From positions 32,451-96,450 of the forward strand of contig JAHCAO010000007.1 of assembly GCA_019634835.1 (NCBI GenBank): DNA of 64,000 bases. Direction: 5' to 3'. The notes beneath the pieces were generated by a model. That model saw only the letters and a program-made list of their open reading frames with translations. It ran no database searches and had not been told where the DNA came from. Source of the stretch: Gammaproteobacteria bacterium. Lineage in GTDB: Bacteria; Pseudomonadota; Gammaproteobacteria; DSM-16500. Both the position numbers and the translations under genes were made by a program. Positions 3,909 through 61,302 of the stretch are shown in pieces; within the stretch, counting starts at the first letter, position 1, and the number at the start of each line of letters is the position of its first letter.

Positions 3909-4077
3909 ATGCATGACGAGTTTTTCGCAACGAGAGGATGAAGGTATTTTTCCTTCACCATTCACCGCAAAACACACTTATCCTTGAGTGAGTTTTACTC
4001 TCGCAGACTCTTGTCTGCGAGTGAATAGTTCATACAAAATACCTTCATCCTCTCGTTGCGAAAAACTCGTCATGCAT
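3909..4077 (-). repeat. Fold-back element copy A (arms + two internal hairpins), between murC and murB
   Basis: A 169-bp palindromic element. The left arm starting ATGCATGACGAGTTTTTCGC is mirrored by the right arm ending GTCATGCAT; the arms match for about 42 bp. Read on the minus strand, the interior has a 9-bp hairpin with loop AAGA (stem CTCGCAGAC/GTCTGCGAG) followed by a second hairpin GTAAAAC/GTTTTGC, where a T-G wobble keeps the pairing. The same layout occurs at 49950, 55528 and 57616. It sits inside the dcw operon, between the murC stop and the murB start, so every transcript through the cluster would carry a long hairpin here. Confidence 0.9.
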
Positions 4078-15743: not shown

Positions 15744-15890
15744 ATAGCGATATCAGAACGGGTCTGCCTTTTTTATTTTTTATATGCGGGAAAATGGGCA
15801 GGAGTCCACTTTAGCAAAAGCCAGAAGGGAAACGTCTTTTGCAACCGAATATAAAAAATAAAAAAGGCAGACCCGTTCTGATATCGCTAT
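15744..15890 (+). repeat. Fold-back element, subfamily 2, copy 1 (downstream of rnpB)
   Basis: A 147-bp palindrome. Arms of about 40 bp starting ATAGCGATATCAGAACGGGT are matched exactly by the right end. Inside, a hairpin with AGGA loop (TGGGC/GTCCA with one G-T wobble) is followed by linker TTTA and then the hairpin GCAAAAG/CTTTTGC. The interior is nearly identical to the copy at 61076-61248, while the outer arms are only distantly similar to that copy's arms. It lies between the 3' end of rnpB and the mraZ upstream region, and could end rnpB transcripts. A 12-bp tandem duplication (TAATAATACAAG twice, 15891-15914) separates it from rnpB. Confidence 0.88.
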
Positions 15891-15910
15891 TAATAATACA
15901 AGTAATAATA

Positions 15911-16251
15911 CAAGTCAGTCGATAAGCCGGGTTCTGTCGAGAGCAATTATTTATCTAGGATGTCTGTCGCCAAACACCTCATGCAGCCTACCCAAACTCA
16001 GTGCGGATCACACTATAGAGTTCCTATTTGGCCTTACTCCAAGCGGGGTTTACCATGCCGCAACTGTTACCAGTTACGCGGTGCGCTCTTACCGCACCAT
16101 TTCACCCTTACTTTGCATCTCGTACAAAGCGGTATATTTTCTGTGGCACTTTCCGTAGGTTCACACCTCCCAGATGTTATCTGGCGCTTTACCCTATGGA
16201 GCCCGGACTTTCCTCTCTTTCTGGTGAAAGAGCAATTGCTTGACTGACTCG
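15911..16251 (-). ncRNA. rnpB: RNase P RNA (M1, type A)
   Basis: Catalytic RNA that trims the 5' leader of tRNA precursors. Read on the minus strand it contains the universal blocks GAGGAAAGTCCGGGCTCC, GGTAAGGGTGAAA-like (GTAAGGGTGAAATGGTGCGG), GCGGTAAGAGCGCACCG, TGGTAACAG, AAGGCCAAATAGG and the 3' block ACAGAACCCGGCTTATCG. The ends pair as helix P1 (AGTCAGTC with GACTGACT), which fixes the boundaries to within a few bases. Length is about 341 nt. Short open frames crossing this interval on either strand are meaningless. Confidence 0.97.
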
Positions 16252-19820: not shown

Positions 19821-20040
19821 GTAACCATTCACAGGGGTAGTCATAGGGCCCCCAAAAACGGAAGCTCTGCGATGTCGAAGCCATGAAGGCCCGTTAAGAG
19901 GGAAGCTAGCGAAGGAATAAAGGCTGCAATTTTAACCCATCTATTGTATTTCAAAGCGGGCCGTCGTGATGACTGGAATGGTGCTATCTATCAGCTTCCG
20001 TTTTTGGGGGCCCTATGACTACCCCCCCGTGAATGGTTAC
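19821..20040. mobile_element. 220-bp MITE with GTAA termini and 8-bp target duplication (IS66-like ends)
   Basis: Terminal inverted repeats of about 46 bp begin GTAACCATTCAC at both ends and continue through TAGTCATAGGGCCCCCAAAA and CGGAAGCT. They differ by a few bases in a G-run. Directly outside, TCACGTTT occurs at 19813-19820 and again at 20041-20048: an exact 8-bp target-site duplication. Ends starting GTAA plus an 8-bp duplication are characteristic of IS66-family elements. The 220-bp interior has no coding capacity, so this is a non-autonomous derivative. It lies in the gap between dolP and the next gene (19681-20096). A fragment of its left interior occurs at 26103-26149. Confidence 0.88.
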
Positions 20041-26102: not shown

Positions 26103-26149
26103 CCAAAAAACGGAAGCGCTGCGATATCGAAGCCATGAAGGCTCGTTAA
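26103..26149 (+). repeat. Internal fragment of the 19821 MITE
   Basis: About 47 bp (starting CCAAAAAACGGAAGCGCTGC) match the left interior of the MITE at 19821-20040 with five to six differences, running up to TCGTTAA. Terminal repeats and target duplication are missing. It lies between the HU terminator and the glmM stop. Confidence 0.8.
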
Positions 26150-47379: not shown

Positions 47380-47488
47380 TGACCATCGGGTATATCACGG
47401 GTTTTTTGTAGTGAGAAGATGTGGTTAATGGTGAAGGAAAAATACTCCACCTCTCGCTACAAAAAACCCGTGATATACCCGATGGTCA
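47380..47488 (-). repeat. Shrunken fold-back element (arms only)
   Basis: A 109-bp palindrome with arms of about 36 bp (TGACCATCGGGTATATCACG on the left, mirrored exactly except one base). The centre keeps only TGGTGAAGGAAAAATA, shared with the element at 57616; both internal hairpins are lost. The arm shares GGGTATAT-ACG-GTTTTTTG with the 57616 copy. Confidence 0.85.
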
Positions 47489-49949: not shown

Positions 49950-50121
49950 GGTTGCATGATGAGTTTTTACAACGAGAGGATCAGGGTATTATTCCTTCAC
50001 CATTCGCCACAAACCACCCTCATCCCTGATTGGGTTTTGCTCGCACAGACTCCTGTCTGCGAGTGAATGATTCATACAAAATAGCCTCACCCTCTCGTTG
50101 CAAAAAACTCATCATGCAACC
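49950..50121 (-). repeat. Fold-back element copy B, divergent gap
   Basis: 172-bp element with arms starting GGTTGCATGATGAGTTTTTA and mirrored at the right, with a few arm mismatches. The minus-strand interior keeps the AGGA-loop hairpin (CTCGC-AGAC-AGGA-GTCT-..-GCGAG with a two-base bulge) and the second, degenerate hairpin. Directly outside are CGTGTTTTAG (left, 49941-49950) and CGTATTTTAA (right), 8 of 10 identical, possibly a decayed target duplication. It occupies most of the gap between the sugar transferase and GT4 genes. Confidence 0.85.
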
Positions 50122-55527: not shown

Positions 55528-55688
55528 CATGGCAAGTTTTTTGCAGTGAGAAGTGGAGGGTATTTTTCCTTCACCATTAATCGCAAAATACACTCATCCT
55601 TGATTGGGTTTTGCTCTCGCAGACTCCTGTCTGCGAGTGAATGGTTCATACAAAATACCCTCCGCCTCATGACGCAAAAAACTCATAC
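55528..55688 (-). repeat. Fold-back element copy C, convergent gap
   Basis: About 161 bp between the dehydratase stop and the cyclase stop. Arms (left GGCAAGTTTTTTGCAG...GGAGGGTATTTT, right its approximate mirror) carry several mismatches. The minus-strand interior is intact: hairpin CTCGCAGAC-AGGA-GTCTGCGAG, linker, GCAAAA/TTTTGC with a 6-bp stem. It may serve as a bidirectional terminator between these genes. Confidence 0.85.
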
Positions 55689-57578: not shown

Positions 57579-57615
57579 GGCAAATCATCCATTCAATCGC
57601 CTATTTATACCTATC

Positions 57616-57832
57616 GCATTTCACGTAGGTGTTCTATGGGTATATAACGAGTTTTTTGCAACGAAAGGATCAGGATATTTTGTATGAGCAATTAACAAGC
57701 AGACAGGAGTCTGCGAGAGCAAAACCCAATCAAGGATGAGTGTGTTTTGCGCTTAATTGTGAAGGAAAAATATCCTGATCCTTTCGTTGCAAAAAACTCG
57801 TTATATACCCATAGAACACCTACGTGAAATGC
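57616..57832 (+). repeat. Fold-back element copy D (best preserved, 66-bp perfect arms)
   Basis: 217-bp element with 66-bp arms that match perfectly; left begins GCATTTCACGTAGGTGTTCT. Interior on the plus strand: CAATTAA pairing with TTAATTG, hairpin GCAGAC-AGGA-GTCTGC, linker GAGA, hairpin GCAAAAC-(18 bases)-GTTTTGC. The interior runs opposite to copies A, B and C. It fills the divergent gap between the cyclase and an SDR gene; 57833-58000 shows no other gene. Confidence 0.92.
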
Positions 57833-58000
57833 TGCAGATATATTTCAATAAGAGTAGCTTGATCTCGCATAAGGACACAAGTCATAAACAATAATCACAA
57901 CGATTCCGCTGGCCTTATAGGACTGGAAACTTATCTAGCACATCATAGACAAGTATGGCAGAATGACCCCGTTTGCAAGAACCTACCTGCTGGAGCCATC

Positions 58001-60891: not shown

Positions 60892-61075
60892 ATTGAAGCT
60901 ATCTCCTCGTTTTTTCTTCTTTTCAAGCACAATTTGTCTGTAGCACGAAATGATGATTATATTTATAATGGCGATTTTACTCCTTTATTATTAAATTATT
61001 ATGATAACGGTCAGGCGGTAAGCATTCAGTTAACTTACCATTTGTTGGTTTTTTATCACTGAGCCGTTGTACGTA

Positions 61076-61248
61076 GTAAGTGTTCGGTGATAGCTGCATC
61101 TAAGCAAGGTGGCTCTTTTTATTTTTATAGGAGAGAAAGTGGACAGGAGTCCACTTTAGCAAAAGCCGGAAGGGAAACGTCTTTTGCGACCGAATATAAA
61201 AATAAAAAGAGCCACCTTGCTTAGATGCAGCTATCACCGAACACTTAC
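61076..61248 (+). repeat. Fold-back element, subfamily 2, copy 2
   Basis: 173-bp palindrome with arms of about 54 bp matching perfectly (left starts GTAAGTGTTCGGTGATAGCT). The plus-strand interior is hairpin GTGGAC-AGGA-GTCCAC, linker TTTA, hairpin GCAAAAG-(15 bases)-CTTTTGC, nearly identical to 15744-15890. The outer arms are only about 60% similar to those of that copy. It lies in the divergent gap 60931-61302; the remainder of that gap shows an inverted repeat GGTAAG/CTTACC around 61030 and no gene. Confidence 0.9.
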
Positions 61249-61302
61249 AATAGGTATGTCAAGTGACCACAACTAGTTGTTTTAAAAAAACAGGATCAAG
61301 TC

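Follow-up and report, generated by a model that had tools for sequence, protein, structure and literature searches.

Two families of MITE-like palindromic elements in a gammaproteobacterial genome, with long arms whose covariation most likely reflects DNA template switching

The nearest published elements found in this study are QMITE1 and QMITE2 of Coxiella burnetii, MITEs that form long palindromes, occur in about 50 copies per genome and in some cases give rise to sRNAs (PMC5896051). QMITE2 is 150–190 bp in length, has direct repeats of 7–11 nt, is located mainly in intergenic regions or 3′ of genes and contains a GTAG REP, and QMITE1 contains an IHF site (PMC5896051). The likeness to the elements reported here, compared by description, lies in their being palindromic MITEs; the accessible part of that paper describes neither a pair of hairpins with GGA loops nor a correction of the arms (PMC5896051).

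Template switching is known to make the arms of inverted repeats identical, which gives rise to simultaneous double changes (PMC7202029, PMC8794818, PMC8604942). This process, quasipalindrome correction, in which imperfect arms become identical through the copying of one of them, is represented in the available portions of the published work by reporters, rRNA and miRNA stems, and yeast genes; here we infer its action on the copies of a dispersed mobile family, in which target duplications supply the yardstick. Within a largely open-access literature, we found no publication that describes the core of the present elements or connects template-switch correction to MITEs of bacteria. Covariation is commonly taken as proof of a selected RNA structure, and these elements combine in one insertion an outer palindrome with covariation like that of DNA copying, an inner and possibly selected hairpin, and a target-site duplication as yardstick. 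The comparison of G-T with A-C mismatches and that of arms with duplications could be carried over to further palindromic repeats, as well as to RNA families that are in doubt.

The window, that is, the whole 64-kb stretch of DNA analyzed, belongs to a genome (G000) of 2.46 Mb in 49 contigs that is 99.8% complete. A sequence-only reading of this stretch had described six fold-back elements in two subfamilies, here termed families A and B, and all six are present, with six matches (≤3 mismatches) to the pattern common to both subfamilies compared with 0.01 expected from shuffles (Table 1). Its set of six was without the truncated family A copy at 47380–47488. Elements in the window are approximately 140–220 bp in length, and the copy at 57616 folds with −141 kcal/mol (z −22.7). 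The sequences given earlier for stem 1 (GCAGAC/GTCTGC in A and GTGGAC/GTCCAC in B) were borne out in the window copies, as was the closing pair of stem 2, which is C-G in A and G-C in B.

Two hairpins indeed lie inside the long arms, but the 4-base linker (GAGA or TTTA) proposed between them is mostly paired, since the consensus fold gives stem 1 a length of 8 bp in A and of 9 bp in B. The G-T wobble noted earlier in the 15744 copy is present, and the outermost of the pairs quoted for stem 1 is in addition broken there, as A.C (ATGGGC/GTCCAC). Family A has an extra helix, ACCATTCAC/GTGAATGGT, between the arms and the hairpins in the consensus fold. No Rfam match at gathering score was obtained, and none up to E 1 at 57580–57870. 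At 61050–61280, sub-gathering Rfam matches were mostly to plant and animal miRNA precursors, which is expected of any long perfect hairpin and does not indicate homology.

Table 1. Elements of both families and core hairpins of the 57616 copy in the 64-kb window.
Feature	Positions	Strand	Details
Family A element, focal copy	57616..57832	+	Arms 57616–57681/57767–57832, 66 bp, 0 mismatches; covariance-model place G000:C47:90095-90253
Core hairpin 1 of the 57616 copy, inner 6 bp	57699..57714	+	GCAGAC AGGA GTCTGC, loop 57705–57708; consensus fold
Core hairpin 2 of the 57616 copy	57719..57750	+	GCAAAAC...TCA AGGA TGA...GTTTTGC, loop 57733–57736
Family A element	3909..4077	-	Arms 3909–3950/4036–4077, 42 bp, 0 mismatches
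Family A element	49950..50121	-	Arms with 5 mismatches or gaps
Family A element (55528 in the sequence-only reading)	55535..55683	-	Arms with 5 mismatches or gaps
Truncated family A copy	47380..47488	+	Arms 47380–47411/47457–47488 retained, both core hairpins gone
Family B element	61076..61248	+	Arms 61076–61129/61195–61248, 54 bp, 0 mismatches; ends GTAAGTGTTCGG
Family B element	15744..15890	+	Arms 15744–15789/15845–15890, 46 bp, 1 mismatch; without the usual end sequence

A genome-wide collection of copies with a covariance model, proposed earlier as a check, found at least 53 places for family A (every one of the 53 candidates scored was a match) and 56 distinct places for family B in G000 (57 matches, of which one is another read on the reverse strand), a few of them fragments and three of the B places weak (<45 bits); a further search added two more short B fragments. 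Across 36 genomes of the order, the B model gave clear copies in four, namely G000, G015 of the same genus (nine copies), G033 of another genus (four) and G026 of a third genus (four), together with weak single matches in G017 and G030. The A model, run on 56 genomes, matched G000, G015 once at a place that the B model also finds, and G001 once and weakly. The distribution of the elements among genomes is patchy. The weak match in G001 (L065, G001:C94:4211-4284) is a long hairpin of another kind, which has a small loop and lacks this core. Exact-pattern scans returned three matches in the genome contig collection, none with matching arms, and no match in viral contigs.

Both ends are recognizable at 39 of 53 places in family A and 39 of 56 in family B, and duplication statistics use these copies. 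Family B has the ends GTAA...TTAC; most of the B copies listed start with GTAA and a few with GTAAGCG. Its target-site duplication is 8 bp in length, with an identity of 0.75 versus 0.28 for shuffled pairs (z 16.8, 39 copies), and every other spacing gives an identity of ≤0.35. The octamers agree at 8/8 positions in seven copies, 7/8 in 15, 6/8 in seven and ≤5/8 in 10, so that 22 of 39 scorable B copies have halves alike at 7–8 of 8 sites; in the window, the octamers flanking the 61076 copy (TGTACGTA/AATAGGTA) are alike at 5/8. The duplication of family A is 8–9 bp (identity 0.46 versus 0.29–0.30 in shuffles, z 6.2–6.5, 39 copies) and is older and decayed. Direct repeats of 6–8 bp with ≤1 mismatch were identified in five of nine G015 copies (L099, L103, L107, L111, and L115), duplications in relatives being the best of many offsets without a shuffle control. 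Because direct target-site duplications stand at the ends of both families, the elements appear to have been inserted by a staggered cut. Both families are MITE-like, that is, short, dispersed and equipped with terminal inverted repeats and target-site duplications, and their length leaves little room for an internal transposase gene.

Hallmarks of IS66 elements are ends starting with GTAA(GCG) and an 8-bp duplication (PMC11946415, PMC3281130). As far as the available parts of these sources describe the IS66 family, family B is similar to it in its GTAA ends and 8-bp duplications and differs from it in its arms of 50–65 bp and the little room for a transposase gene, whereas family A is unlike it in both its ends (GGGTGCATGACGAG) and its duplications of 8–9 bp. 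An IS66 element is resident in G000 (L203 889–2392), with a 468-aa transposase, the ends GTAAGCGTTCACGG and the duplication AAGATTCG. The B copy at C23:18877 has its first ten bases (GTAAGCGTTC) in common with the end of this element, and the other B ends differ from it by at least one base; even in the closest copy, only about ten bases are in common. In the flanks examined of L199, another IS66 element, which comprises three genes, no ends of the L203 kind were present. Family B is probably mobilized in trans by an IS66-type transposase. For A-type ends, no inward pair of IS size was present among 89 end matches (≤1 mismatch).

A different mobilizing enzyme, an HUH/Y1 (RAYT-like) transposase acting in trans through recognition of the hairpins, had been suggested from the sequence. 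In having a small loop of fixed form, the hairpins are reminiscent of HUH substrates, and a Y1_Tnp (PF01797) match is present in eight of 18 genomes searched, for example at 148 bits in G015. However, no Y1_Tnp match was obtained in the 99.8%-complete genome that carries about a hundred copies (five candidates scored), and IS200/IS605-type (HUH) transposition is not known to make target-site duplications, which at 8–9 bp are present here. Y1/HUH mobility was rejected on these two grounds and must be regarded as extremely improbable.

Arm pairing was analyzed in alignments of the 29 (A1) and 30 (A2) best BLAST copies, the cells of which share ancestry, so that p values serve as guides. No arm mismatch at all was found within 21 of 39 B copies and five of 39 A copies. 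Covariation of the B arms is strong and above both shuffled and slid controls: in 30 copies, 27 of 32 arm pairs contain double changes, and 186 cells were changed on both sides, compared with five changed on one side and 16 unpaired. Across copies, however, the middle of the B arms differs at 0.43 per site, and the end sequences are more conserved (0.17 vs. 0.43). Arm mismatches of the G-T and A-C kinds are about equally frequent, 96:111 in A (53 copies) and 39:34 in B (56 copies), with 158 (A) and 96 (B) other mismatches.

These numbers bear on the possibility that the element as a whole, with its arms, is a structured RNA under selection for pairing, which is one of the two forms that the earlier claim of a selected fold could take. 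Arm covariation above the controls favors this possibility, and so does hairpin 1 of the core, which covaries between subfamilies and in which G-U is commoner than A-C (26:8 in A, 16:9 in B). If a single RNA strand were selected, G-U ought to be spared in the arms, yet G-T equals A-C there, which makes RNA selection on the arms unlikely; with the count of 186 versus five cells, in which one-sided intermediates are nearly absent, it was rejected. Variable arm middles, arms that run into unique flank (see below), a random orientation to genes and the lack of an Rfam match at gathering score also argue against a wholly selected RNA, a reading that we consider improbable. For the long arms, the claim of selection on the fold therefore found no support.

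The target-site duplications offer a further comparison. In 34 B copies whose duplication is recognizable, its halves differ at 46 of 272 sites (17%) and the arms at only 28 of 1758 (1.6%). A middle threshold on the duplication (29 copies) gives mismatches of 29/232 in duplications and 24/1498 in arms, and the strictest threshold (22 copies) gives 15/176 (8.5%) and 18/1134; thresholds of this kind select well-preserved duplications. If all copies were young and their arms identical simply because each copy was born that way, with no correction after insertion, B copies with perfect arms (21 of 39) and B cores only 3.3% from the consensus would be accounted for, as would the growth of arm mismatch with core divergence in A. 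Duplications of the same B copies nevertheless differ at 8.5–17% of sites, arm middles differ at 0.43 per site among copies, and in some copies the flank beyond the ends is duplicated in inverted orientation; youth of the copies is thus an unlikely explanation.

Matched arms reach past the element into flanking DNA in several copies, by 23 bp in A:C8:9370, 21 bp in A:C23:176122 and 18 bp in A:C5:49823, the flank being unique to the copy as judged against the element stretches collected rather than the whole genome. B:C46:107005 has lost the canonical end, in place of which the same flank stands on both sides, and in B:C1:351962 the octamers are inverted rather than direct. The 11 B copies scored as extended include two fragments, and for most of the remainder the gain is only 6–10 bp. 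DNA-level selection for matched arms, for instance by a transposase or an architectural protein that needs a symmetric cruciform, would also predict equal G-T and A-C if both DNA strands were selected equally, and agrees with ends more conserved than arm middles (B, 0.17 vs. 0.43). It leaves unexplained the outgrowth into copy-unique flank, the end replaced on both sides and the near-absence of one-sided states, and we give it little credence, a shade less than the two preceding alternatives.

Insertion into pre-existing palindromes was rejected as a general cause of the long arms, as it fails for the copy-unique extensions. It may fit A:C34:98718 and A:C34:149005, which have a common extension, A:C47:90095 and A:C46:79416, whose extensions resemble that one, and B:C1:381127, which sits between A-type arms. 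The outer arm common to A:C34:98718 and A:C34:149005 (CGTAGCGTTTCACTTAG..ATTCTAT) is perhaps part of yet another palindromic repeat, the third, and a similar stretch flanks A:C34:131314 and B:C3:71184.

Since double changes dominate, G-T equals A-C, arms outmatch duplications and the flank is drawn into the arms, DNA copying of the arms is indicated, and template switching of DNA, not RNA selection, is the most likely source of the arm covariation. Taken as a whole, the picture of MITE-like families with 8–9 bp duplications, of which B is probably mobilized by IS66 and whose arms are kept identical by quasipalindrome correction, is in our judgment likely to be right. In this process, a transposase would recognize the element ends; after insertion, nascent DNA would fold back at the hairpin and one arm would be copied onto the other, which would erase differences between the arms, create paired double changes and sometimes carry flank across.

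Several observations weigh against a uniform action of arm correction. In family A, the arms differ at 8.5% of sites, and the more so the more divergent the core (rho 0.50), and therefore correction is weak in A. Family B shows no correlation among mismatch in the duplications, divergence of the core and mismatch in the arms, so that the duplication is an imperfect clock. Because B cores are only 3.3% from the consensus and duplication halves are 8.5–17% apart, the B core may be under constraint or may undergo conversion from copy to copy. Between B copies, arms differ by 0.38 and cores by 0.08, and this excess of arm over core variation is more than correction alone explains.

ExoI restrains quasipalindrome mutation in E. 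coli, and its C-terminal domain was found in none of 10 genomes of this genus and in eight of nine others; G033 and G026 carry elements, yet have the domain. SbcD, one half of a complex that opens hairpins according to the accessible part of the source (PMC6265447), was above the cut-off in none of 19 genomes, with eight of 14 controls passing and weak sub-cut-off matches in seven of the 19, including G000. The lack of recognizable SbcD and ExoI might let palindromes persist and be corrected, and offers a testable reason for the build-up of long palindromes in this lineage.

The two-hairpin core, usually with GGA in the loop, is present in four genomes of three genera, as read by a script that favored GGA loops. 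Stem 1 is GCAGAC in A (exact complement in 32 of 52) and GTGGAC in B (35 of 55); it is GCGGAC in eight of nine and CGGACA in one of nine G015 copies, ACGGAC, ACGAAC and twice CGGACA in G033, and twice GTCGAC, GCTGAC and GCCGAC in G026. Loop 1 is AGGA in 34 of 52 A copies (AAGA in six) and 45 of 55 B copies, AGGAT or GGGA in G015, AGGA or GGGA in G033 and AGGAT in G026. Hairpin 2 contains AGGA or AGGGA in A, G015, G026 and three of four G033 copies and AAGGGA in B; L094 contains neither AGGA/AGGGA nor AAGGGA.

Here the claim of a selected fold fared better, and only in part. Stem 1 covaries between subfamilies across the four genomes, and hairpin 1 in 30 B copies departs from its consensus only by nine one-sided G-U cells and one gap, with no cell broken, which makes selection on this stem plausible. 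Counted across every copy, hairpin 1 has a G-T:A-C ratio of 26:8 in A (p 0.003) and 16:9 in B (p 0.23), whereas hairpin 2, with 23:17 in A and 12:19 in B, has no wobble preference. The A core contains 15 double-changed cells versus 3.9 in shuffles; the whole B core (30 copies) has 11 one-sided and two broken cells and no double change, so that compensatory changes within B do not bear out the claim. Signs that pairing is selected are thus modest in hairpin 1, which is possibly under selection, and absent from hairpin 2; the core, the only part of the element with such signs, limited to its first hairpin, may be retained because of the fold that it forms. The short core stems, too, could be subject to template switching. 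An active element probably depends on the core, whether as RNA or in the form of a single-stranded DNA hairpin.

CsrB/RsmZ-type CsrA-binding RNAs contain hairpins that present GGA in the loop. The present elements resemble them in this respect and differ in having only two such hairpins per copy, predicted from DNA, and in occurring in G033 (four elements), where CsrA was not found; CsrA is present in seven of eight genomes searched. A CsrA decoy was rejected as the main explanation on the evidence of G033. Orientation of the elements to neighboring genes is random (18:15 and 17:13). A more speculative proposal, which we regard as improbable, is that the core is an RNA cargo, in which about a hundred transposed copies of GGA-loop mimics of CsrA/Rsm sites, or of the sites of another GGA-reading protein, would form a dispersed protein-titrating RNA, and arms perfected by template switching would guarantee folding and release by a double-strand RNase. 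Should the recurrent GGA-loop core prove functional, regulatory RNA would arise from these MITEs, much as the available part of the paper on Coxiella reports for the MITEs of that organism (PMC5896051).

Two A-type arms of 22 bp enclose a B element at G000:C1:381087-381304, an arrangement that insertion into an A palindrome devoid of its core would give. At G000:C5:50993-51044 and G000:C45:43875-43924, A ends face each other at a distance of approximately 50 bp; these are possible mini-palindromes from which the core has been lost, and many other A ends stand singly. The IS66 copy with GTAAGCG ends sits inside another repeat (CGGAAGC.CTGCGAT.TCGAAGCCATGAAG; L203 817–888), which also occurs at 19851–19897 and 26103–26149 of the window and is located between genes or at their ends.

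The gap beside the RNase P RNA gene, rnpB (window 15744–16251; L134, L132, L124, and L136), is a shared hot spot. In the window, the 15744..15890 element lies 16 bp from the 3′ end of this gene, and G015 has a counterpart of this copy from another subfamily. Among 15 genomes with rnpB compared, the same gap contains other long hairpins in G003, G008 and G013; the one downstream of rnpB in G003 (L132) combines perfect arms of great length with a short core, GCGCAGGAGGCCGGAGGCCG, that does not resemble A or B.
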